Shown here one piece after another: positions 5,859 through 19,149 of a stretch of DNA of 64,000 bases (its first letter is position 1; every line of letters begins with the position of its first letter). The notes beneath the pieces were generated by a model. It ran no database searches and was not told the DNA's origin. It was given only the letters and a program-made list of their open reading frames with translations. Source of the stretch: Pyrococcus sp. NA2. GTDB lineage: Archaea; Methanobacteriota_B; Thermococci; Thermococcales; Thermococcaceae. The DNA lies in the NCBI RefSeq assembly GCF_000211475.1, contig NC_015474.1, positions 496,001-560,000 on the forward strand. Direction: 5' to 3'. A program made the position numbers and the translations under genes.

Positions 5859-6851
5859 TTAGCATTTTATAAGTTGAGTAAAGACATCCTCAAGACTTGC
5901 GGCTTCATTTTGCAGATCAACTACATTGTAATTTGCCAAGATCCTAAGAACTTCTCTAATGTGTTCCTCTTGGATATAGAGTTCTAGGTAAGTTAAACTA
6001 TTTTGATTGTATATGTTGACCTTTTCTGCAATCCCCTCAAAATCATCAGTTTTAACCTTCCCCCTAACTTTGACTAAAAGCCTTCTCCTTGCTTTTAAAG
6101 CTTGAAATTTTTCGATTAGTTCTTTTGGTTTGCCTTCAGCGATTTTCTTTTTGTTGAAAATCAGGACTCTATCGCACAAGGTTTCGGCCTCCTTCAAGTT
6201 ATGAGTAGTTAATATTATTGTAGTTCCAAAATCTCTGGATAGTTCTAAAATAGCATTCCAGACTTCCCTCCTTGTAAAAACATCAAGATAGACAGTTGGT
6301 TCATCCAGAATCAAAACTTCAGGCTGAATAATAAACGGTAGTGCGAGATAGACTTTCTGCCTCATTCCGGCGGAAAGCTTTTGATACCACTCATCCCTCT
6401 TATCCCTGAGATTCAAAAGCTCCAAAGCATAGTTAATCCTCTTTTCAGCTTCACCTTTAGGAATTCCCCAGAGTTCTGCAATAAATTTCAAGTTCTTCTC
6501 CACGCTTACACGCCATTGAAAGAGTCCAAACAAATCTCTCTCACCACCAAAAATTGTGAAAATCTTGCCCTTGATTCTATCATGCTCCTTCACTGAGTCG
6601 TAACCATTAATGTAAAGATTTCCTCGAGTTGGAATCACCAGAGCATTTGCAATCTTGCAAAAGGTAGTCTTCCCAGCACCATTAGGACCTAAAAGACCAA
6701 AAATCTCGCCCTCCTTAACTTTGAAATTTAAATCAATTAGGGCTGGGATTTTCTCTCTGGGTTTTCCAAGAAAGTCTCTCAAACTCTTCAGGTCAAAGAG
6801 CGATTTTATTGGAGGGGGATAAAACTTAGTCAAGTTAACTGACTCAATCAT
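5859..6851 (-). CDS. ABC transporter ATP-binding protein (intact, orphan)
   Basis: 330 residues. Walker A GLLGPNGAGKTT near residue 55, signature LSAGMRQKVYL near 164, Walker B EVLILDEPTVYLD near 185 and the switch His in ILTTHNLKEAE are all present, so it should hydrolyse ATP. A C-terminal extension of about 80 residues follows, as in DrrA/NatA-type exporters. Its ATG (6851) follows AAGGGAGCAAA. No permease lies beside it on this strand, but it diverges from the Cys-rich peptide gene, and the permease at 12.0 kb has only a dead ATPase. It may therefore power that permease; this is inference. The divergent promoter region is duplicated at 10.6 kb. Confidence 0.92.
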   Translation of the reverse strand: MIESVNLTKFYPPPIKSLFDLKSLRDFLGKPREKIPALIDLNFKVKEGEIFGLLGPNGAGKTTFCKIANALVIPTRGNLYINGYDSVKEHDRIKGKIFTIFGGERDLFGLFQWRVSVEKNLKFIAELWGIPKGEAEKRINYALELLNLRDKRDEWYQKLSAGMRQKVYLALPFIIQPEVLILDEPTVYLDVFTRREVWNAILELSRDFGTTIILTTHNLKEAETLCDRVLIFNKKKIAEGKPKELIEKFQALKARRRLLVKVRGKVKTDDFEGIAEKVNIYNQNSLTYLELYIQEEHIREVLRILANYNVVDLQNEAASLEDVFTQLIKC

Positions 6852-6876: not shown

Positions 6877-7018
6877 AGTTACTTATAACTATTGCTCTTT
6901 TTTTCTTTAATTACGGTTTCATGACATTTATAAAAAAGTTTCAAGGATTTTATAAATAAGTTGCAGTAAAACTTATTTATCGTTTCACCCGAAAATGTGA
7001 ATGCAAAAACTTGAGGAG
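6877..7018. promoter_or_regulatory. Divergent promoter region of the peptide cluster (repeat copy 1)
   Basis: AT-rich divergent promoter between the ABC ATPase (minus) and the peptide gene (plus). Minus-strand TATA-like GTTATAAGT lies near 6880. Plus-strand candidates are TTTTATAAATA (about 6949) and CTTATTTAT (6972). Nearly the whole segment recurs at 10604-10741 with scattered substitutions. A strong GAGGAGGTGG ribosome binding site for the peptide gene follows at 7013. Confidence 0.7.
6952..6980. promoter_or_regulatory. Inverted repeat, candidate operator of the peptide gene
   Basis: ATAAATAAG and CTTATTTAT form a perfect 9-bp inverted repeat separated by 11 nt, overlapping the possible TATA boxes. 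The duplicated promoter at 10.6 kb keeps it with one mismatch (ATAAATTAG/CTTATTTAT). It could be a repressor site; AT-rich promoters can produce such symmetry by chance. Confidence 0.4.
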
Positions 7019-7028
7019 GTGGTAGGGT

Positions 7029-7250
7029 ATGGAGTTTGAGATTATAGAAAGAGGTTCAGGAGAGGGAATTGCTGGGAACCTCTCATGTACCTGCTATGCA
7101 GGATCAGGTCTTTGCGGAGATGACTGCAGTCTATATTGTCCAGGAGTTTGCATACCTAAGTGTATCGCCGTATTGATTCCAATGGGTTTCTGTATTGGAA
7201 TATATTGTGAGTGTAACCAGCGTTGCGAACCTGATTGTGTCTGTCATTAA
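7029..7250 (+). CDS. Cysteine-rich peptide, candidate RiPP precursor
   Basis: 73 residues with 13 Cys, all in the last 54 residues (C20, 22, 29, 33, 37, 41, 45, 55, 60, 62, 66, 70, 72). C29 to C45 are spaced exactly every four residues, and the Cys often flank Gly, Pro and small residues. The first 19 residues (MEFEIIERGSGEGIAGNLS) have no Cys and would be the leader; there is no Sec signal. The ATG follows a strong GAGGAGGTGG site. A radical SAM/SPASM gene begins 60 nt downstream, the usual arrangement for sactipeptide or ranthipeptide precursors with their maturase. An alternative is a metal-binding (ferredoxin- or metallothionein-like) peptide. I do not recognise a named family. Confidence 0.75.
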   Translation: MEFEIIERGSGEGIAGNLSCTCYAGSGLCGDDCSLYCPGVCIPKCIAVLIPMGFCIGIYCECNQRCEPDCVCH

Positions 7251-7260
7251 CTACTAATCG

Positions 7261-7280
7261 TTTGTTTTTTTGTTTTGTTA
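7261..7280 (+). terminator. T-rich tract after the peptide gene, possible partial terminator
   Basis: TTTGTTTTTTTGTTTTGTTA immediately after the peptide gene. Oligo-T tracts terminate archaeal transcription. Here one would give abundant short peptide mRNA, with read-through into the maturase. Confidence 0.5.
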
Positions 7281-7310
7281 TTTCTCAATTGAAGATGTGG
7301 AGGGAAATAA

Positions 7311-8729
7311 ATGCCGTATAAATCCTCCAAATATAATTTGTTCATCGAAGGAAAACGAGAAGTTATATTATTTAACACATTGAGAAACATAATAGCTAAG
7401 TGTGATATTGAAACAAAAGAAATCTTGGAAAATGAAACGTTTAATAAATTGCCTCCAGACTTGTTAAATAAGATGATTTCTGAAGGAATAATAGTTAACA
7501 AAGAACTAAACGAGCTTAATATCATTAAACTTACAAGAATGATGTATTATGGACAACTTCTACATTATTTAAGTATTGGACTGACTTTAGTAATGACATA
7601 TTCTTGTAATTTGAGATGTCCCTACTGTTATGAAGGAGATATAAAAAGCAAAGGTGGGTTATTAACCCGAGAGAAAATTGAGACAATACTCACTTTTGCA
7701 AGTGCTTATGCACAAGGAGACAAAAAACCAACAATCTCAGTTAGTTTCTATGGAGGAGAACCTCTTTTAAATTGGAAAGGATGTGAATATACACTACAAA
7801 GATTAGAAGAAATGAAAGAGAATAAAGAAATCCGTGATTATTCAGCAGGTTTTGTCACTAATGGAACACTAATTAATGAGGACATTGTTGACGCAATCAA
7901 TAACTACAACGTATATTCAATGCAGATAACATTGGATGGTCCAAAAGAGATCCACGATAAAAGAAGAATAAAATCAAATGGAGAGGGAACATTTGATCAA
8001 ATAATCGAAAATATAAAACTTTTAAATCGGAGAATAGCTAATAAAAACTTCCATTTGGCATTAAGAATAAATGTTGACAAAACAAACTATAAAAAAATCC
8101 CAGAATTGTTAGACTTCTTAAAGGATGAGGGTCTAGGAGGTATACCAATTTCCTATGGAATTGTGAGAGGAAATCTTCCTTATTGTAGTTCCAACTGCGG
8201 TGTTTACTTTTCTGGGAGCGATCTTCAGAAGTATCTCCCATATCTTTGGAAAGAAGCTTACAGGCGAGGATTCGAGGTTTGGACTAGACCTAACTTACGA
8301 TTCATTTATTGCGGATATGACAATCCATTTGGATACGTTATTGACCCAGAATTAAAGGTATGTCCGTGTTGGGAGATGGTTGGAATTGAGGATTATCAAA
8401 TTGGGGAAATACAGAAAGATGGAACAATGAAAATTACTCCATTTTATTATGATGCGAAATCTAGGGATCCTACAGAATATGAAGAGTGCAAGAATTGCAA
8501 ACTTTTGCCAGTTTGCATGGGTGGATGTGCAATGGAGTCAATTCGAAAAAATGGACATCCCAATGGTCCAGGATGTGACATAAATAAATATATTTGGAAA
8601 GAAGGATTAAAATTTTATCTAATGAAGAAGTATCCCAACCTATTTAGCAAGGAAACTCTAATAGAGAACTTAGGGGGAGTTCCAAATAGAGATGAACAAA
8701 CCAAAAATCGTATAATGTTCAATACTTAA
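7311..8729 (+). CDS. Radical SAM/SPASM peptide maturase
   Basis: 472 residues. The N-terminal ~90 residues look like the small winged-helix leader-recognition region common in RiPP radical SAM enzymes (inferred from position and residue pattern). The radical SAM cluster motif is C99xxxC103xxC106 (SCNLRCPYC), followed by SFYGGEP and the TLDG strand. The C-terminal SPASM region has cysteines at 334, 351, 353, 393, 396, 402, 406 and 422, including the CMGGCAMESIRKNG motif, enough for two auxiliary Fe-S clusters. Such enzymes form thioether crosslinks from Cys in peptides. ATG follows GTGGAGGGAAATAA. Three decayed relatives of its C-terminal half lie downstream. Confidence 0.93.
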   Translation: MPYKSSKYNLFIEGKREVILFNTLRNIIAKCDIETKEILENETFNKLPPDLLNKMISEGIIVNKELNELNIIKLTRMMYYGQLLHYLSIGLTLVMTYSCNLRCPYCYEGDIKSKGGLLTREKIETILTFASAYAQGDKKPTISVSFYGGEPLLNWKGCEYTLQRLEEMKENKEIRDYSAGFVTNGTLINEDIVDAINNYNVYSMQITLDGPKEIHDKRRIKSNGEGTFDQIIENIKLLNRRIANKNFHLALRINVDKTNYKKIPELLDFLKDEGLGGIPISYGIVRGNLPYCSSNCGVYFSGSDLQKYLPYLWKEAYRRGFEVWTRPNLRFIYCGYDNPFGYVIDPELKVCPCWEMVGIEDYQIGEIQKDGTMKITPFYYDAKSRDPTEYEECKNCKLLPVCMGGCAMESIRKNGHPNGPGCDINKYIWKEGLKFYLMKKYPNLFSKETLIENLGGVPNRDEQTKNRIMFNT

Positions 8730-8787: not shown

Positions 8788-10536
8788 ATGATGATTGGAA
8801 AAAAGGTGATTGTTATTTTCATTTCTTTTATCATCATACTCCCTAGTGGATGCCTCAGGATTCCAACTGAGCAGAAAACTTCTTCTCAAATGCAAGCAAA
8901 TTCAGAACTACATGTTGAATATCCTTTACAAGCAGAAGCGCAAGTGATATACGAACCTGAAATAGATGATATTTTTAGGAGAATTTCAGTGGATTATTCT
9001 CTGGTTGGAAATGTAAGTACCTCAATTACACATCATCATTTAAGGCTGAAATGGGACTTCATGATCGTAAACAGAACACAAGATAGTACAATAATTTACA
9101 TATTAACCCCAAACTTTGGTAACTTGAATATCACATTTGAAGAACAGCAAGTTAATTTATCGAGACTCTCTTATTACTTATTGCCTGATTATAATGTCAA
9201 GATATTTCTCTTGAATTTAACATATTCAAAAGATAAACCACTCTTCGGAACACTGGAATATGAGACGACGATAGATTCCCTGTTTCTCTATTACGTAGCT
9301 CAATTTTCCAAGTCTTTTTATTATCCAGAAAACTATCCTTATGCAATATACTTTTCACCGAATTTTGTTTTCCCCGTATCTCCTGCAGGGATAATTGGGA
9401 AAGTTTCTCGGGGAAATATCGTTCTTGTTCTTCCTTCGAGGTATGCAGTAATCTCTGAGTACCCGTTAGAAGTAAACTCTAAGAATAATCAAACGATTAT
9501 AATAATTGACAATTCCAAACCATGGGGTTCTGTGTATATTTATAAAAGAGGATTTTTCCAGGAAACTAAACTAACAATAGGGGACAACAATACTTGGTTA
9601 GTAATTTATGCTCCAAGCAATATGAGGTTATATTCTAAGGAACTTACTAACGCTACTGTAAAAATAATTAAGCATTACATAGATAGATTGATGGATCCCC
9701 CTTATTCCGAAATCAACGTAATTTTTCATCCAGATCTTCCATTTGGAAATGGAGAGGAATTTGAGGATTCTGGAAAAGGAATTGCAATTGTTGGAATTCG
9801 AGATAGCAAAAGGATTGAAGACATTTTACCAACCCTTGCACATGAAGTTGCTCATCTGTGGTTTGGAAGTTATACTAATCTCACTCCAGGAATTGAGGAA
9901 GGTCTTGCTACATTCATGGGAAGTGATGCGGGATATCTCAGCTATAGCTTAGGTTACACAGAAAGGCAAATATTGAAATATTCTTCACAATACAGGAAAC
10001 CATTGATTCAGGCCTATAAAGAAGTTATCTCCAATCCCCAAGTTAGGAATGCCATTAAATATTATAAGGGTGCTTTTGTCTTCCGCTCCCTACAATTCGT
10101 GCTCGGGAATGAGACTTTCTTTGAAGGCTTAAGAGAGCTTTTGAGGGAGTGCCATGGTAAAGAATGCAATTTAACGGACGTTCAAAGTGTTTTTGAAAAA
10201 GTCAGTGGACAAGATTTAGATTGGTTCTTCAAAGAATGGTTTTACACTGCAAAAGTTCCTAATTATTACGTGAGAAACCTACGTTTGGAGAAAGAGGATT
10301 GGAGATACACAGTAAGCTTTGAAATTATTGACAAAAACAACTTCACAATGCCACTTGAAGTCGAAGTAAAAACTCCAACAAAGAGTTTCATTAAGAAAAT
10401 CTGGGTTAATGGGAGTGCAAGGGTAGAGTTTGAACTTAATGAAAAGCCCACAGAGATAATTCTCGACCCAAACGAGTGGATGGTGAATGAGAACAAAAAA
10501 TACAATGTTAAAGGAATAGAGATAATAATTGAGTGA
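8788..10536 (+). CDS. M1-like zinc peptidase, lipoprotein
   Basis: 582 residues. The N-terminus is a lipoprotein signal (hydrophobic run then LPSGC, lipid-modified C22), placing the enzyme on the outer face of the membrane. The gluzincin motif HEVAHLWFG starts at residue 352 with the third zinc-ligand candidate in GIEEGLATF. The glutamate lies about 15 residues after the second His, not the 19 of typical M1 enzymes, so the loop is shortened. The C-terminus has the M1-type KGAFVFRSLQFVLGNETFF and SGQDLDWFFKEWFY segments. RBS GGTGGGAAG. A role in trimming the exported peptide is inference. Its C-terminal third is almost identical to the peptidase at 16.4 kb. Confidence 0.9.
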   Translation: MMIGKKVIVIFISFIIILPSGCLRIPTEQKTSSQMQANSELHVEYPLQAEAQVIYEPEIDDIFRRISVDYSLVGNVSTSITHHHLRLKWDFMIVNRTQDSTIIYILTPNFGNLNITFEEQQVNLSRLSYYLLPDYNVKIFLLNLTYSKDKPLFGTLEYETTIDSLFLYYVAQFSKSFYYPENYPYAIYFSPNFVFPVSPAGIIGKVSRGNIVLVLPSRYAVISEYPLEVNSKNNQTIIIIDNSKPWGSVYIYKRGFFQETKLTIGDNNTWLVIYAPSNMRLYSKELTNATVKIIKHYIDRLMDPPYSEINVIFHPDLPFGNGEEFEDSGKGIAIVGIRDSKRIEDILPTLAHEVAHLWFGSYTNLTPGIEEGLATFMGSDAGYLSYSLGYTERQILKYSSQYRKPLIQAYKEVISNPQVRNAIKYYKGAFVFRSLQFVLGNETFFEGLRELLRECHGKECNLTDVQSVFEKVSGQDLDWFFKEWFYTAKVPNYYVRNLRLEKEDWRYTVSFEIIDKNNFTMPLEVEVKTPTKSFIKKIWVNGSARVEFELNEKPTEIILDPNEWMVNENKKYNVKGIEIIIE

Positions 10537-10741: not shown

Positions 10742-10754
10742 GGCGAAGAAAAAT

Positions 10755-11037
10755 GGAAACATATGTATTGATCCTGAAGGATACATATACAAATGCTGGC
10801 ATGAAATTGGCATAAAGGAAAAGTCAGTAGAACATGTGAGCTCAGGATTTAACGAAAGATTAAACAAATGGCTATCATACAATCCTCTCGAATTTGAGGA
10901 TTGTAAAAGTTTGTATGGGTGGCTGTCCTCTCCGGGCAATGGAGAACAACAAAGAATGTACCCATAGCACACAAAATTGGGAATCACCTCAGATTAGTTC
11001 ACATGTACAAATGTCAACATCAAAACATAGAAGGTAA
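10755..11037 (+). pseudogene. Radical SAM maturase remnant A (SPASM end)
   Basis: The frame from 10755 reads GNICIDPEGYIYKCWHEIG, then FNERLNKWLSYNPLEFEDCK, matching the SPASM segment after the barrel of a radical SAM enzyme. It then needs a frame change near 10915 to read GCPLRAMENNKEC, the GGC motif of SPASM. No start codon, radical SAM CxxxCxxC motif or full domain remains. The sequence is not a close copy of the intact maturase, so it derives from a different maturase of the same kind. Confidence 0.75.
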
Positions 11038-11474: not shown

Positions 11475-11999
11475 ATGTCGGGAAGATTAGCTATTAAAGC
11501 AATAAACCTCGAAAAGGACTACGGTCGTATTATCGCTCTTAAAGGGATAAGTTTTGATGTTAAAGAAGGGGAAATCTTCGGTTTAATTGGACCAAATGAC
11601 GCTGGCAAGTCTACAACATTGAGAATTCTTGCAACGTTATTAAAGCCCAGTGCTGGACGAGCTGAGGTTTATGGACATGACGTGGTTAAAGAGGCAAAGG
11701 AGGTTGGAAAATTGATAAGTTATCTCCCAGAGGAGGCTGGAGCATATAAGAATCTCACTGGATATGAATATCTGGAGTTTATGGCAAAGCTATACTCGAA
11801 GACTGAGAGGAGTGTTGATAAAATGCTGAAGCTTGGTGTTGAGATTGAAGTAGAATTCCTATGCGACAGAGTTGCTCTAATAAACAGGGGTATCATTGTT
11901 GAAGTTGGCACTCCTAAAGAGCTGAAAGAGAGATACAACGCCGAAAATCTTGAAGAAGTCTTCATGAAGGCTGTAGCTAAGATGGAGGTGAAATTTTGA
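11475..11999 (+). pseudogene. ABC transporter ATPase with internal deletion
   Basis: 174 residues only. The N-terminal half is a normal ABC ATPase (KAINLEKDYGRIIALKGISF, Walker A GPNDAGKSTTL with Asp replacing the usual Gly, LPEEAGAYKNLTGYEYLEF). After KMLKLGVEIE it jumps to VEFLCDRVALINRGIIVEVG, the region after the switch His. The signature motif, Walker B, D-loop and switch His, roughly 75 residues, are absent although the reading frame is kept. It cannot hydrolyse ATP as a normal NBD. The permease gene follows with a 4-nt overlap, so translation of that gene may still depend on this one. Confidence 0.85.
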
Positions 12000-13156
12000 G
12001 CGATTTGTGGATTATATTTATGAAAGAGCTGAAGGACATTCTCAGGGACAAGAGAATGCTAACGGCAATTGTAACTCCTCTTGTTGTTATCCCCTTGGTC
12101 TTTGGAGGTGTTCAATTGTCTAAGCCTCCTTTTCAAGTTTCAGTTCACGTGATAGATCAAGACCGAGGGGTATATTCCAAAATGCTTGTGGAATTCCTCC
12201 AGAGAAATGGTGTTTTGATTAACGAGAGCAGTAGCATAACCCTAATCATCCCTCAAGGATTCTCCAAAGCATTCGAAAGTGGCCATTCTCCAAGTGTTGT
12301 CCTTCGGGTTGAGCTTTCTTCAATTTTTGATTTGAGAACTGCCAAAGCTGGGGAATATATTGGGCTTTTGTGCAGAGAGTTTGGGGAGAGCTTGACACCT
12401 GCACTAAAACCGCAATTTCAGACCGTGTTTATGGAGAGAGCAGTGAATGTTGCTCCTTCCATTTATCTGTCCTCGCTCTTAAAGAGTGCGCTGATAATAC
12501 CTGCCCTATTCTTTTTGATAGCTGTGTATGCATCTCAGGTAATAGCGGCGACAATTGCCGTGGAAAAGGAGCAGAGAACACTTGAGACCCTACTAACTCT
12601 TCCGGTTTCAAGGAGGTCCTTCATCCTTGGAAAGATTTCTGCCGCAGTTGCCTTCAGTGTTCTCGTAATACTCTCTTTGGGAATTTCGTTTGGAGTGGCA
12701 TCACGGTTTTCCCTAAAATCCTTACACTTAGCTGTTAGTATTGGGGCTTTACCCGTCGCTGTGCTTTCCATTGGTGTGTTCATGCTCTTCATAATTATGC
12801 TCCTTACGAGCGTTATAGTTTCCCTGTTCACTCAAGATGTCAGGAGCGCCTTGAGTATTGCAGGTCTTGTTGAGCTTCCTTATTTGATTCCTCTGCTGAT
12901 TATCGTGGGTGGGTTCGACGTGTCCGGTTTTTATAGACTCATTCTTGTAAGTTTAAATCCGGGTTATGCTCCCTTTTATGCCTTTTCAAGTGCACTAAGT
13001 GGAGAATATCTTCGTGTGCTTTTAGCTCTGCTTTATCTCCTTGTGTGGGATGTTATAATGCTAAAGATTGCTGTCAGGATTTTTGACAGCGACCTTATAC
13101 TAACCGCAAACCTAAATGCAGAGAAGCTCAGATGGCTTGTAAGGATAAAAATTTGA
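11996..13156 (+). CDS. ABC-2 type permease (NatB/DrrB-like)
   Basis: 386 residues. N-terminal cytoplasmic segment FMKELKDILRDKRML, a first membrane helix, a large outward domain (about residues 45-170) and then five or six membrane helices in the C-terminal half, including the conserved EKEQRTLETLLTLPVSRRSF loop of ABC-2 exporters. TTG start overlaps the stop of the preceding ATPase (TTGA). The frame is intact although its partner ATPase is deleted. It would export the modified peptide or give immunity if driven by another ATPase, such as the one at 5.9 kb (inference). Confidence 0.9.
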   Translation: MSDLWIIFMKELKDILRDKRMLTAIVTPLVVIPLVFGGVQLSKPPFQVSVHVIDQDRGVYSKMLVEFLQRNGVLINESSSITLIIPQGFSKAFESGHSPSVVLRVELSSIFDLRTAKAGEYIGLLCREFGESLTPALKPQFQTVFMERAVNVAPSIYLSSLLKSALIIPALFFLIAVYASQVIAATIAVEKEQRTLETLLTLPVSRRSFILGKISAAVAFSVLVILSLGISFGVASRFSLKSLHLAVSIGALPVAVLSIGVFMLFIIMLLTSVIVSLFTQDVRSALSIAGLVELPYLIPLLIIVGGFDVSGFYRLILVSLNPGYAPFYAFSSALSGEYLRVLLALLYLLVWDVIMLKIAVRIFDSDLILTANLNAEKLRWLVRIKI

Positions 13157-13687: not shown

Positions 13688-14034
13688 ATGTATGATAGCC
13701 CATTTTATTATGCAATCGACCCTACTTTGAAAGTATACCCCTGTCTGGAACTTGTAGGGAATGAAAAATATGTTGTTGGAAGTATCGACGAGAATGGCAA
13801 TTTTATACCGACACCCTTCTATTATGATGCAAAGTCAAGAGATGCTCTAGAAGTTGAAGAGTGTAAAACGTGCAACTTCCTACCAATCTGCATGGGGGGT
13901 TGTGCCGTAGAATCAATTAGGAAGCATGGTCATCCCAATGATCTGGATGTGTGACGTATCGATACTTATGGAAAGAAGGACTAAAGTTTTATCTGCTCAT
14001 GAACTATCCTAAAATAATTACAAGAAGGGCATGA
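13688..14034 (+). pseudogene. Radical SAM maturase remnant B (SPASM end)
   Basis: Closely matches residues ~336-435 of the intact maturase: FYYAIDPTLKVYPCLELVG, TPFYYDAKSRDALEVEECK and CMGGCAVESIRKHGHPN. A frame change near 13945 continues as YRYLWKEGLKFYLLMNYP, also maturase-like, to a stop at 14032-14034. The start and radical SAM barrel are missing, and one of the CxC cysteines is Tyr. This is a dead partial duplicate. No ribosome binding site precedes it. Confidence 0.85.
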
Positions 14035-14142
14035 AATTACCACTATAAGAGGAGATAAGTATGAAGCAGAACATGCTACTATTTGGCATTTCCACAGTCT
14101 CTATTACCAAATAAAAATAGGAAGAATAGGGGAGGATTAGAA

Positions 14143-15852
14143 ATGAGGAACATTGCAATTAGTGTCGCGATAATATATTTAATGCTTTTTTCAACTCCAG
14201 CACTAGCCTCAACAAAGAGTACTCAAAGTTCCCCAAAAGTGATTGTAGAAGTTAACCCCAATTTGGAATTGTTTGCTGTGGTTTACATTCTAGCGTTTAA
14301 CGGAAGTGAGGACTTTATTATTGCACCTAAAAGCTATATTAAAGACGTTTTAGAGTATTTTGAACCTTACAAAGAACATCCAGCAGTAGAGCTGATAAGA
14401 GAAATAATGCCAAGAGATCAGCCACACTATCTAAAGGATCATTTTATTATGGATTTCGCTGGGAACCTAGCTACTATGCCTTATCTTGGCAACTTTAGTG
14501 AGACTGATCTCCTTTTATCTGAGTTTTACCGACAACTTTCAGGTTTTGCAAAGGAAAGCAATTTTATTCGATTTTACAACTCTCACAGAGAAACATACGA
14601 GAATGCTGTAAAACCTTTGAGGGATGTGATACCAAAGGATTTTCCCAAAAAATTTATCGAATTCTTCGGATACAGCTATAGTGAGTACCGAGTAGAACTC
14701 TCATACTCGTTGTGGATTCATGCACATGTTAAATATGATTTGGACTCGATAACCTGTGTGATGTCAGTTCCTAATGATCCCTCAAGCCGAATAAGAACAA
14801 TCTTTCATGAGTTTACTCATCCCTATATTAACCCCCTTATAGATTCTCATTCCATGCTCTTTAGGAACTTAACATACTTTGTCGAAGAAGTTCAAAAAGA
14901 GTTTCCAACCGTAACTTCCAGAGATCCATTGCATTATGCCAGCAATTACTACTGGCGTGAGCTTTTAACTGAATCATTTGCCCTCTATCTAATAAGCCAC
15001 TATAATTTAACAAAGGTAAAGTATTTAGAATTTTTAGACTTCGCATCTGGTTATTACTTGGTTGATGATATTATTAAGGAATTCAGGACTTTTGAGAAAA
15101 CTAAGCGACCCACTGAAACACTTTCCGACTATTTTCCCACCTTAATTAAGCATCTACAGGAATTGGCTACTCCAAATAACGTAACACTGTACTTCAGACA
15201 AAAAGTTCCAGTTACAGTATTCTGGTTTCTTAATAGGGGCTATGCTACAGGAAGGATAATCATAGTTTATGGAACTCAGAATCCAGATGAGGAAGGTAAT
15301 AGGTACGATAAAGAAAGTGCATTTCAGCTGAAGGACAATCTAAACAAAATGTTCTCCAAGACTTATGGCATTTCACCAACAATCATAGTTAAGAGTGATA
15401 AGGAGCTTACAGATGAAGACCTGAAAGAGAATATAATTCTTGTAGGCGGTCCAGTTGCCAACAACTTAACAAAAAGTCTCCAAAACAAAATGCCGATTAA
15501 ATTCGTTTTAAATGGGACGTGGAGATTAAAACGGGATCCCAATTCAGTCAACAAGTTTTCCGCTTTTCTCTTTACTTCCTTTAGGAAACTTCCAATTGAG
15601 GAGCTTTCAATAGATGCTCCCATCCCCCAAGAATATCCACTCGGAGTTATTGAAGTTATCAGAAATCCTTGGAATGATAAAAATTTAATCCTTATTGTGG
15701 CTGGAGTTGACAGATATAGCACAAGGAGCATTGTAACCCAAGTGCAAGGTTTGCTTACCAGTTACATAATAGAGGGGAACAACTACCTCGAAGCTGGATT
15801 CTATGAAATATGGAAAACCTTGAAAAATAAAGTTATTGATGAAAACGTTTAG
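14143..15852 (+). CDS. DUF4932-type secreted zinc metalloprotease
   Basis: 569 residues. Starts with a Sec signal peptide (MRNIAISVAIIYLMLFSTPA, cleavage after ALA-S likely). Zinc motif HEFTHPYINPLIDSH at about residue 222 and a downstream glutamate in ELLTESFALYL make it a gluzincin, resembling the DUF4932 family (family name from memory). The C-terminal ~180 residues contain a Rossmann-like or S-layer-associated segment (RIIIVYGTQNPDEEG, IILVGGPVANNLT). ATG 14143 is chosen because GGGGAGGATTAG precedes it. The protein would act outside the cell. It lies between two radical SAM remnants, consistent with a protease of a lost or shared peptide system. Confidence 0.85.
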   Translation: MRNIAISVAIIYLMLFSTPALASTKSTQSSPKVIVEVNPNLELFAVVYILAFNGSEDFIIAPKSYIKDVLEYFEPYKEHPAVELIREIMPRDQPHYLKDHFIMDFAGNLATMPYLGNFSETDLLLSEFYRQLSGFAKESNFIRFYNSHRETYENAVKPLRDVIPKDFPKKFIEFFGYSYSEYRVELSYSLWIHAHVKYDLDSITCVMSVPNDPSSRIRTIFHEFTHPYINPLIDSHSMLFRNLTYFVEEVQKEFPTVTSRDPLHYASNYYWRELLTESFALYLISHYNLTKVKYLEFLDFASGYYLVDDIIKEFRTFEKTKRPTETLSDYFPTLIKHLQELATPNNVTLYFRQKVPVTVFWFLNRGYATGRIIIVYGTQNPDEEGNRYDKESAFQLKDNLNKMFSKTYGISPTIIVKSDKELTDEDLKENIILVGGPVANNLTKSLQNKMPIKFVLNGTWRLKRDPNSVNKFSAFLFTSFRKLPIEELSIDAPIPQEYPLGVIEVIRNPWNDKNLILIVAGVDRYSTRSIVTQVQGLLTSYIIEGNNYLEAGFYEIWKTLKNKVIDENV

Positions 15853-15854
15853 GC

Positions 15855-16354
15855 TTAAGAATAAATGTTGACAAGACAAACTATAAACGGATCCCAGAAT
15901 TGTTAGACTTTCTAAAGAAGGAAGGGTTTGAAAATGTATCAATTTCTTATGGGATTGTTAGTGGTGTTTATTTCTCTGAGAGTGATATTCAGAAATATCT
16001 CCCATACCTTTGGAAAGAAACTTACAGACGAAGGTTTAAGGTTTGGACTAGCGTGGATATGATATTTGGGCATGTTATCGACCCGGAACTGAAAGTCTAT
16101 TCATGTTGGGAGACGATCGGGGGATAGATACTGCATAGAGGTAAAAATTAGAGAAGATACATTAAACCTACATCCACTAAACAAGAAACCCATTTGAATT
16201 TGAAGAGTGTAGAAATTGTAAAACCTTAACCTATTTGTATGGCGGTTGTGCGTTTGTGTCGATATTGAAATACGGCACTCCAAATGCTCCAGGATGCATC
16301 CTTTATCTATATTGCGAGGCTGGATTACATTTTTATCATAAACTTCGGAGATAA
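15855..16354 (+). pseudogene. Radical SAM maturase remnant C (C-terminal third)
   Basis: Begins abruptly with LRINVDKTNYKRIPELLDFL, nearly identical to residues 251-270 of the intact maturase, and continues through IQKYLPYLWKETYRRRFKVW and HVIDPELKVYSCWETIG. One extra G in the run near 16120 causes a stop; another frame change near 16180 leads into FEFEECRNCK, YGGCAFVSILKYG and CILYLYCEAG. Several SPASM Cys are changed or lost and the barrel is absent. It abuts the DUF4932 stop by 2 nt, so the junction is probably a recombination point. Confidence 0.85.
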
Positions 16355-16405: not shown

Positions 16406-18097
16406 ATGAAAATGAGAAAAATCTTTATAGCTTTGATATGCATTGGCATTATATTATTTTTCACTTTTGAAAATGTCACTATTAATCTAGAAAATTTCCA
16501 AATAATTGACGGAGAGAACATTCCCAAATCGAATGCATCCTTTCGTGACATTGCCGATTTAACCACACATAACTTTTCCAAGCTTGAAGTTAGATCTTAT
16601 ATAGAACTCACAATTAATCCTTCTTCTCAAAAAAGTTTAGAAGTGGATGGGAAGAAAATTTTGACAGTAAAAAACGTTAGAGAAAGCGACACAAGTAGAA
16701 TATCACTGATATTTCCTAAGAGAGTTGTTATTGGAAATATTACAGCGAAAGGATGCTTTATTAAGAACGTTTCAATGGTCACCATGCCTCAAGCAAATAT
16801 CTTGGTACTCGTTTTAAAGATACCAAAAGATAAAATTGGGAATATAACAATAGAGTATCATGCCGAAGTAATGCGCTTTGAGCCTTTTGTAAGTTACATA
16901 GAAATGAGAGAAAGCTGGAGCATTTTCAGAACAACCTATGATGGAAACGAACTCGTGTTATCATCCATGTGGCTATTGAGGGAACTTGAAACTTTTGAAA
17001 GCTATGAATCACAAATACGCCTGAAGGTTCCCAAGGGTTGGGAAGGAGTAGTAATAGACGAAAAAGGAGAAGGGTTCTGGGAGGTTATTTACAAAGGATC
17101 AACAAGAGAGGAGAATGTTCTTGTGTATAGCTCAAAAAATTCAAGAAATCCACTAATAATTGTGGGTAATTTCTCGCTCATTTGTAAAAATCTTTCAGGA
17201 ATAACAATTAATGTGTATCAGGTGGGAAGAAAGAGAGAAGACGTTGTTTATGTTGTCTCCAAAATAGTGAGGAGTTATTCTAGAATTCTAGGAGGTTATC
17301 CATACTCCAGCCTCAAAATCTTTTACCTGGAGAGTTTAAACACTAAGGCGGGTTTTGAGTTCCCACAAGGAGTTATATTAATACATCCTAAAAGGAATGA
17401 AACTCTCCTCCTCGCCCATGAAATTGCCCACTCTTGGTTCGGTGATTATGCATCTTTTGGTAGGATGGATGAAACATTAGCAAATTATCTTGCTATAATG
17501 TCCATGAATTCTTATGAAGTGCTTAATTTTGTAGAACATTCTCCTTTAATTAATTCCACCTACACCTTAGCACAAGTTTATACGGAAGACGTGTTCAATC
17601 CACACACAGAAGGAATGGTGTACTACAAAGGTGCTTTTGTCTTCCGCTCCCTGCAGTTTGTTCTTGGTAATGAGACTTTCTTTAAAGGACTAAGGGAACT
17701 TTTGAGGGAATGTCATGATAAAGAATGCAATTTAACGGACGTTCAAAGTGTTTTTGAAAAAGTCAGTGGACAAGACTTGGATTGGTTCTTCAAAGAATGG
17801 TTTTACACTACAAAGGTGCCCAATTACAAGATTGAAAACTTAAGTCTAATCCAAAAGAATGGAAAATATATAGTGAGCTTTGACATTATTGACAAGAGCA
17901 ATTTTACAATGCCCCTTGAGGTTGAGATAATAACTTCAAAAGAAAAATTTGTCAAGAAAGTTTGGATTAAAGGAAAAGCAAAGGTTAGTTTTGAGATAAA
18001 TGATAAGCCCCTAAAGATAATCCTCGACCCAAACGAATGGATGATAAATGAGAATAAAGAATACAGCGTAGATGGAATGAAGGTGATAGTGAATTAA
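16406..18097 (+). CDS. M1-like zinc peptidase, membrane anchored or secreted
   Basis: 563 residues with an N-terminal hydrophobic segment (IFIALICIGIILFFTF) but no lipobox. Zinc motif HEIAHSWFGDY at about residue 338, third ligand in MDETLANY about 14 residues on, and a GAMEN-like strand GFEFPQGVILIHP just before. The C-terminal part (KGAFVFRSLQFVLGNETFF to the end) is nearly identical to the lipoprotein peptidase at 8.8 kb, while the N-terminal two thirds are only distantly similar. ATG 16406 has a weak upstream GTGAGCAC; an in-frame ATG at 16412 is an alternative. Presumed extracellular peptide trimming is inference. Confidence 0.88.
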   Translation: MKMRKIFIALICIGIILFFTFENVTINLENFQIIDGENIPKSNASFRDIADLTTHNFSKLEVRSYIELTINPSSQKSLEVDGKKILTVKNVRESDTSRISLIFPKRVVIGNITAKGCFIKNVSMVTMPQANILVLVLKIPKDKIGNITIEYHAEVMRFEPFVSYIEMRESWSIFRTTYDGNELVLSSMWLLRELETFESYESQIRLKVPKGWEGVVIDEKGEGFWEVIYKGSTREENVLVYSSKNSRNPLIIVGNFSLICKNLSGITINVYQVGRKREDVVYVVSKIVRSYSRILGGYPYSSLKIFYLESLNTKAGFEFPQGVILIHPKRNETLLLAHEIAHSWFGDYASFGRMDETLANYLAIMSMNSYEVLNFVEHSPLINSTYTLAQVYTEDVFNPHTEGMVYYKGAFVFRSLQFVLGNETFFKGLRELLRECHDKECNLTDVQSVFEKVSGQDLDWFFKEWFYTTKVPNYKIENLSLIQKNGKYIVSFDIIDKSNFTMPLEVEIITSKEKFVKKVWIKGKAKVSFEINDKPLKIILDPNEWMINENKEYSVDGMKVIVN

Positions 18098-18357: not shown

Positions 18358-18497
18358 CTAATTAAATGATACCTCTTAACATCTTTTCCTATTTCGCTCT
18401 CTTTTTTGTTAACATTAACTTCGTCATTAAAAACAAACCTCACAACAACACCAAAACCTTAAATCTCCCAATGATAAAATCTCTCATGGGAAGAGTT

Positions 18498-18695
18498 ATG
18501 CAGGTCATTGAAGCAATTTATGAGGATGGAGTTTTGAAACCTCTAAAAAAGCTAAAGCTTAAAGAGCACTCAAAGGTCATCATCAAGATCATTGATGAGG
18601 AGGAGCTTGAGAAAATCTTGGATTCCATGGTTATCGAGAAAGTTGAGGGCATAGATTATAAGAAGCTTAAGGAGGCTTACTATGAATCACTTTGA
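18498..18695 (+). CDS. DUF104 (AF2212-like) antitoxin
   Basis: 65 residues starting MQVIEAIYEDGVLKPLKKLK, the signature N-terminus of the DUF104/AF2212 antitoxin family, which pairs with PIN-domain toxins. The start at 18498 gives the usual family length; an in-frame ATG lies at 18486 and a longer reading from 18366 is unlikely. An ACCTTAAATC TATA-like element about 30 nt upstream suggests a nearly leaderless mRNA. The stop overlaps the toxin start by 14 nt. Confidence 0.88.
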   Translation: MQVIEAIYEDGVLKPLKKLKLKEHSKVIIKIIDEEELEKILDSMVIEKVEGIDYKKLKEAYYESL

Positions 18696-19149
18696 AGTCT
18701 TTGTAGATTCTTCTGTTCTGGTAGGATTAAACCTTGGTGATGAAAAGGCGAAAGCATTAGTAAAGTCGTTAATTGAAAGAGGCCTTACCTTAGTTATAAA
18801 TCCAGTCGTTTTCTCTGAAACGGCTTATAAGGTTATGTTTACCTTAGCCCTTCGAGATGGATTGAAGGGTGTTTATGATCTCAAAAAGCATTTGAATAGA
18901 TATAGTTGGGTTTATGGGAAAGTCAAGGAATCAATTGAACGACTGATGAAGAATGAACTTTTAAGGATAGTTGAAGTCAACTGGGAAATACTAAAGTTAT
19001 CCGCAGAAATTGGGGAAAAATACGCTCTTTTAACCAACGATGCGATAATAGTTGCCACTTGTAAATATTATGGAATTAAGAAAATAGCAACCTTTGATGA
19101 AGACTTTAAGAAAGTTAATTTTCTCGAAATTATTGATTCGCCGTTATAA
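18682..19149 (+). CDS. PIN-domain toxin (VapC-like ribonuclease)
   Basis: 155 residues with the PIN acidic set: VFVDSSVLVG at the N-terminus, the middle Glu in VVFSETAYKV, and LTNDAIIVATCKYYG plus IATFDEDFKKV near the C-terminus. These Asp/Glu residues bind Mg2+ in VapC-type nucleases. It overlaps the DUF104 antitoxin gene, the classical toxin-antitoxin layout. The pair lies between two copies of the S15 leader, which suggests it arrived together with that duplication. Confidence 0.92.
   Translation: MNHFEVFVDSSVLVGLNLGDEKAKALVKSLIERGLTLVINPVVFSETAYKVMFTLALRDGLKGVYDLKKHLNRYSWVYGKVKESIERLMKNELLRIVEVNWEILKLSAEIGEKYALLTNDAIIVATCKYYGIKKIATFDEDFKKVNFLEIIDSPL

Follow-up and report, generated by a model that had tools for sequence, protein, structure and literature searches.

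The window, by which we mean the whole stretch of 64,000 nucleotides of Pyrococcus sp. NA2 that was analyzed, contains a cassette in which a short Cys-rich ORF is followed by genes for a radical SAM/SPASM enzyme and a zinc peptidase and is preceded by a divergently oriented exporter gene. The host genome measures 1.86 Mb, and an Rfam search gave no match. The features of the cassette are the following.

5859..6851, minus strand: ATPase of a DrrA-type ABC exporter, oriented divergently to the precursor; its partners in relatives are PF01061 and MarR/TrmB-like
6926..6980, plus strand: promoter/operator region with TTTATAAA boxes, GTTTCA repeats and the inverted repeat ATAAATAAGTT-7-AACTTATTTAT (inverted-repeat search and comparison)
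7029..7250, plus strand: Cys-rich putative precursor peptide, 73 aa with 13 Cys; an ORF with orthologues in six other Thermococcales genomes and Cys spacing {4,2}
7029..7079, plus strand: leader MEFEIIERGSGEGIAGN, nearly invariant in the family (F3, I5, E7, G9, S10, E12, G16 and N17 invariant in the alignment)
7086..7247, plus strand: core, with a CxC, five period-4 Cys (29-45), Cys55 and a CxCxxxCxxxCxC-H tail
7251..7310, plus strand: intergenic T-rich stretch between precursor and maturase
7311..8729, plus strand: radical SAM/SPASM peptide maturase, 472 aa, with an N-terminal RRE-like region (Pfam PF04055, AlphaFold, Foldseek)
8788..10536, plus strand: lipoprotein-like M1-family zinc peptidase (HEVAH), 582 aa (Pfam PF01433; HExxH at residue 352; SGC lipobox-like N-terminus)

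The translation of the short ORF (window 7029-7250, plus strand) is MEFEIIERGSGEGIAGNLSCTCYAGSGLCGDDCSLYCPGVCIPKCIAVLIPMGFCIGIYCECNQRCEPDCVCH. A ribosome site, GGAGGTGG, lies upstream of it, the promoter boxes and GTTTC motifs are conserved in seven genomes, and the reading frame is kept in the orthologous genomes; for these reasons the ORF can be regarded as real. Its dN/dS of 0.32 points to purifying selection acting on a translated gene. The T-rich stretch that follows it possibly serves as a partial terminator, a function that would yield more precursor than enzyme.

The precursor and the exporter operon are linked by a conserved divergent promoter. At five orthologous loci (L044, L045, L046, L049 and L050) the operon divergent from the precursor consists of an ABC-2 permease, a winged-helix protein of 96 aa that is MarR/TrmB-like, and the DrrA-type ATPase, the frame of which is broken in L046. 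In the window genome the permease and regulator genes have been lost, and the nearest permease elsewhere is a 31% paralogue; the deletion leaves the divergent promoter abutting the start of the ATPase gene (5859-6851). The inverted repeat ATAAATAAGTT/AACTTATTTAT is perfect, and together with the GTTTCA motifs it possibly serves as the operator for the missing winged-helix regulator. A match to the maturase is present in 16 of 18 genomes that have a close orthologue of the exporter ATPase versus 8 of 76 that lack one, with a p-value of about 2e-10 that treats related genomes as independent and is to be taken as a guide. In some genomes (G014, G042) the exporter ATPase and the maturase are not neighbours. 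The M1 gene lies downstream of the maturase in six of the seven orthologous loci, and its product is a candidate leader protease or immunity/processing protein.

Decayed cassettes in the surrounding island

Downstream of the M1 gene the window carries further genes and gene fragments of related cassettes.

10746..10977, plus strand: remnant, limited to the C-terminal part, of the maturase from a CefA-type cassette (identities of 72.7% and 60% to the maturase next to CefA in L048)
11475..11999, plus strand: ABC ATPase of a decayed CefA-type cassette, with an in-frame deletion of ~75 aa that removes the signature motif and Walker B
11996..13156, plus strand: ABC-2 permease of a CefA-type cassette, full length (Pfam PF12698; 52% to permeases beside CefA loci)
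13691..14025, plus strand: second window-type maturase copy, present as a remnant (66% and 52% identity)
14083..15852, plus strand: DUF4932 protein with an HEFTH motif, a putative secreted zinc peptidase of RiPP cassettes that recurs beside maturases in relatives
15849..16336, plus strand: third window-type maturase copy, present as a remnant (62% and 53% identity)
16406..18097, plus strand: second M1-family zinc peptidase, 563 aa (Pfam)

The leftover maturase fragments, ATPase and permease indicate that this island gains and loses RiPP cassettes. No convincing precursor remnants were found beside the decayed maturases in the window. A pair comprising an AF2212-like antitoxin and a PIN-domain toxin adjoins the island (window 18366-19149). 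Elsewhere in the same genome there is a second CefB-like maturase (G000:C1:678865-680112; L029, L055), beside which no Cys-rich precursor was found.

The intact cassette was compared with its counterpart in a genome of another genus (G077). The two maturases are ~98.5-99% identical and the two precursors 85%, with dS values of 0.007 for the maturase, 0.218 for the precursor and 0.137 for the peptidase. Diversifying selection on the precursor was considered and rejected, given its dN/dS and the near absence of synonymous change in the maturase; the pattern of divergence is a recombination mosaic.

Cysteine spacing across the precursor family

The Cys of the precursor are found at positions 20, 22, 29, 33, 37, 41, 45, 55, 60, 62, 66, 70 and 72, with successive gaps of 2, 7, 4, 4, 4, 4, 10, 5, 2, 4, 4 and 2. 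A preliminary description of this DNA had drawn attention to the region 7086-7250, which begins at the first base of codon 20 and thus runs from Cys20 to the stop. We could reproduce its central observation, as Cys 29, 33, 37, 41 and 45 follow one another at steps of exactly four residues and all three CxC pairs (20/22, 60/62 and 70/72) are present. Its Cys positions were given correctly, with Cys55 and Cys66 overlooked; of the paired groups that it placed on both flanks, the CxC pairs stand, whereas a CxxxxC is seen only at 55/60 and residues 62, 66 and 70 form a second period-4 run. In shuffled cores of the same composition, a run of five Cys with period 4 has p = 0.011 for the window peptide alone.

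A homologue survey of 94 genomes of the order detected the precursor in seven, the host genome included, and found it absent from the other eight genomes of the host's genus. In all seven an orthologous maturase, 53-99% identical and in one case (G059) broken by stops, adjoins the precursor. The leader consensus MEFEIIExGSxEGIAGN is conserved across the orthologues and all seven precursors end in a CxC[HY], while the cores vary and contain 9-13 Cys. In the alignment, conservation is higher in the leader than in the core; a conserved leader joined to a variable core is the usual pattern of RiPPs.

The spacing of the Cys was tested by shuffling the cores of five non-redundant orthologous precursors 20,000 times and pooling the gaps between adjacent Cys. 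A gap of 4 was observed 26 times against an expectation of 5.9, a value that none of the 20,000 shuffles reached, and a gap of 2 was observed 15 times against 9.9. Gaps of 1 and 3 were avoided in the same five precursors, with 0 observed versus 12.7 expected and 1 observed versus 7.7 expected, respectively. The three closest copies retain every one of the 13 Cys, as compared with 27 invariant columns among the 44 others of the core (Fisher p = 0.005). The Cys array is thus real and exceeds chance. The preliminary description had held that its interpretation would fail if homologues kept the number of Cys and not the spacing; the alignment reveals the reverse, in that the spacing rule is preserved while the Cys count and the sequence change.

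Two structural readings had been offered for the regular spacing, namely ordered cross-links along one face of the peptide or a metal-binding helix. The CxxxC loops of the family contain Gly or Pro in 19 of 32 cases, with Pro in 11, and the CxC pairs share no helix face, so that a metal-binding helix is unlikely. A more general alternative is that the peptide is metallothionein-like or carries an Fe-S cluster, the radical SAM neighbour being incidental. The Cys content is indeed high, and CxC and CxxxC are common metal-ligand spacings. However, the same Gly- and Pro-bearing loops make a helix unlikely, no metal-peptide family or structure matched the window peptide in Pfam, NCBIfam or the PDB, and every precursor found adjoins a maturase and has a leader that is more conserved than its core. 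We therefore hold a metal peptide to be very improbable. The first of the two readings agrees with the 2/4 rule, because in an extended strand the residues i+2 and i+4 lie on one and the same side; a rule of 2 and 4 with gaps of 1 and 3 avoided is what one would expect of a one-faced extended strand.

Beyond the Thermococcales, identity to the maturase does not exceed 36% in the best 80 loci, and no comparable peptide was present in the 31 that were examined. Two genomes of the same class (G113 and G114; L175-L181) encode many maturase candidates of ~30% identity, often as tandem pairs, some of which adjoin peptides of 32-59 aa that end in CxC plus three residues and have a leader different from that of the window family. 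Viral contigs yielded no relatives, and plasmids distant maturases only.

The maturase and its proposed cross-linking chemistry

The maturase contains the radical SAM motif C99xxxC103xxC106 and seven SPASM Cys (334, 353, 393, 396, 402, 406 and 422), all of which are invariant among six orthologues; across 25 distant relatives they are likewise invariant, with the exception of C422. The nearest NCBIfam models are maturases of Cys-rich target peptides, and the best solved relative by sequence is CteB (5wgg, E=1e-30). The AlphaFold model (mean pLDDT 86) likewise recovers CteB as its best Foldseek match (5why, E=1.8e-21), which it matches over nearly its full length. In this model the N-terminus forms strands at 3-31 followed by helices at 33-41 and 49-58; the predicted succession of strands and helices in the first 60 residues is as expected of an RRE, and we describe the region as RRE-like.

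Taken together, ORF 7029-7250 probably encodes a precursor that the adjacent radical SAM/SPASM maturase converts into a thioether-type RiPP. The RRE-like region would grip the conserved leader, and the enzyme would move along the core, linking Cys sulfurs to carbons of nearby residues as thioethers; with the Cys spaced 2 or 4 apart, a ladder of small rings along one face could result. The divergent ABC exporter would carry the modified peptide out, and the leader would be removed, possibly after AGN and perhaps through the action of the secreted zinc peptidase whose gene comes next. In VARTIG proteins of the Thermococcales a GN motif has been proposed as a cleavage site (PMC8416519), and its resemblance to the AGN end of the window leader is only a two-residue parallel. 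The mature peptide would act extracellularly, with related archaea as its likeliest targets or partners; a part in competition or signalling between them is favoured by the exporter, the secreted peptidase and the turnover of cassettes. Since the exporter permease and regulator have been lost in the window genome, export may be broken there, or it may rely on the leftover permease at 11996-13156.

The window family lacks an acceptor residue that recurs at a constant distance from the Cys, and for this reason thioether formation cannot be read from the sequence. Either the acceptor side chain is immaterial, as it is in Calpha thioethers, or the number of cross-linked Cys is lower than expected. 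The latter option leads to an alternative in which the peptide is a RiPP precursor whose maturase makes few or no S-C bonds, for instance by carrying out other C-C or C-H chemistry or closing a single ring, and in which most Cys serve as thiols, in disulfides or as metal ligands of the exported product. Besides the lack of a conserved acceptor, it can appeal to a characterised SCIFF peptide with six Cys, in which one thioether only has been identified (PMC8326336). Disulfides would also be feasible: the preliminary description had argued that they form poorly in a product made in the cytoplasm, an argument that carries little weight here, as the window genome encodes a protein disulfide oxidoreductase (PDO; 257 bits versus a cut-off of 185) and a survey found cytosolic disulfides to be widespread in thermophilic archaea, among them P. 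furiosus (PMC3177088). Full disulfide pairing is better countered by the odd number of Cys in five of the seven precursors. This count also tells against the few-thioether alternative as a whole, as do the absence of adjacent Cys and near absence of CxxC, unlike in metallothioneins, and the fact that the closest solved maturases form thioethers; on balance we regard it as unlikely. We prefer thioethers in view of the family to which the enzyme belongs and of the odd numbers of Cys. With the maturase adjacent, CteB as its closest solved relative and the spacing kept over the count, ordered cross-links, as originally proposed, are the likeliest reading of the Cys array.

Other cysteine-ladder cassettes and named systems

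CefA-type cassettes with other maturases adjoin the same exporter operon in two related genomes (G046 and G022; L048 and L053). Their peptides score 50.9 and 58.7 bits against NF038108 (cut-off 30), have Cys gaps of 5, and carry Asp, Asn, Gln, Glu or Arg at Cys+3 in every unit. D, E, N or Q occupies Cys+3 in 89% of the units of CefA-type peptides versus 44% of the CxxxC units of the window family. One of these loci (L048 2209-2782, G046) encodes three tandem CefA-type precursors, one of them with ten consecutive Cys gaps of five, and its maturase is nearer to the TIGR04463 and Clo7bot models than to CefB. Three further genomes (G015, G016 and G054; L227 1282-1593, L228 793-1790 and L229 1280-1593) contain tandem CG[LIV]D-repeat peptides that have a different radical SAM gene and a paralogue of the exporter ATPase as neighbours. 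This system was reached through weak NF038108 matches under the CefA cut-off; Cys+3 is mostly Asp, and the peptides look like a CX2D-type Cys-ladder RiPP. By analogy with the Cys-X3-Asp link in freyrasin (PMC9413430), the Cys+3 pattern of the CefA-type and CG[LIV]D peptides points to a thioether between Cys and Asp/Asn in a register of three.

It is conceivable, and we put it forward tentatively, that the Thermococcales maintain Cys-ladder RiPPs as exchangeable cassettes that share one exporter and promoter, with the register set per cassette: period 5 with Asp/Asn at Cys+3 in the CefA-type and the third, CxxD, type, and 2/4 without a fixed acceptor in the cassette described here. If so, the window-type maturase would place thioethers by Cys spacing alone, the acceptor side chain being irrelevant, and its product could carry as many as 13 rings in a ladder along one face, remain stable near 100 C and represent an undescribed RiPP subclass. 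The question raised is whether a radical SAM maturase can read the Cys register instead of the identity of the acceptor. The system is a compact one, with a 73-residue peptide, one enzyme and six natural variants under the same spacing rule, and it would provide a heat-stable enzyme for peptide stapling. RiPPs of hyperthermophilic archaea are, to our knowledge, almost unstudied, and the product of this precursor is a candidate for a role in competition or signalling among vent archaea.

No paper naming the window peptide family was found in the literature searched, and the term 'Cys-every-fifth' was without matches there, so that its relatives are known mainly as database models. The maturase falls far under the cut-offs of the PapB, SCIFF, Clo7bot and CXXX-repeat maturase models. 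The last of these, TIGR04115, bears a name that denotes a radical SAM target in which Cys recurs every four residues, and it is set apart by the maturase score (64.6 bits versus a cut-off of 350). SCIFF with CteB/ScfB (TIGR03974; 5wgg, 5why) shares the combination of a Cys-rich precursor with a radical SAM/SPASM maturase and provides the best solved structural relative; however, SCIFF has six Cys in 45 residues, as against 13 in 73 with a spacing rule in the window peptide, and the maturase scores 105.9 bits where TIGR03974 requires 425. The ranthipeptide freyrasin, with its CX3D thioether ladder, resembles the window system in its four-residue register and in serial cross-linking by a radical SAM/SPASM enzyme, PapB (PMC9413430). 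In the window array, unlike in PapA, the residue at Cys+4 is Cys and not Asp/Glu, and the maturase reaches 151.5 bits versus the NF047865 cut-off of 340.

By maturase sequence, the closest named system is CefA/CefB (NF038108/NF038107), which likewise places a short Cys-periodic precursor beside a radical SAM/SPASM maturase, supplies the top NCBIfam model of the window maturase, and in related species occupies the same exporter-linked slot. These likenesses could be taken to mean that the window peptide is simply a CefA peptide of drifted spacing that is processed by CefB. Against this, the Cys spacing is 4 and 2 and not 5, the leader reads MEFEII..GS in place of MEWIV.P, there is no fixed polar residue at Cys+3, and the maturase attains 343 bits where NF038107 requires 600. 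Moreover, the window peptide does not match NF038108 at E<1 and no NF038108 match occurs in the window genome, as opposed to the scores of the period-5 peptides given above, and we find the notion of a drifted CefA peptide scarcely credible. What the window pair does display are several features that typify radical SAM/SPASM thioether RiPPs: an adjacent enzyme with CxxxCxxC and seven SPASM Cys, a conserved leader, a variable Cys-rich core, and adjacency of precursor and maturase at seven loci. The precursor and its maturase are best explained as a family of their own next to CefA/CefB.
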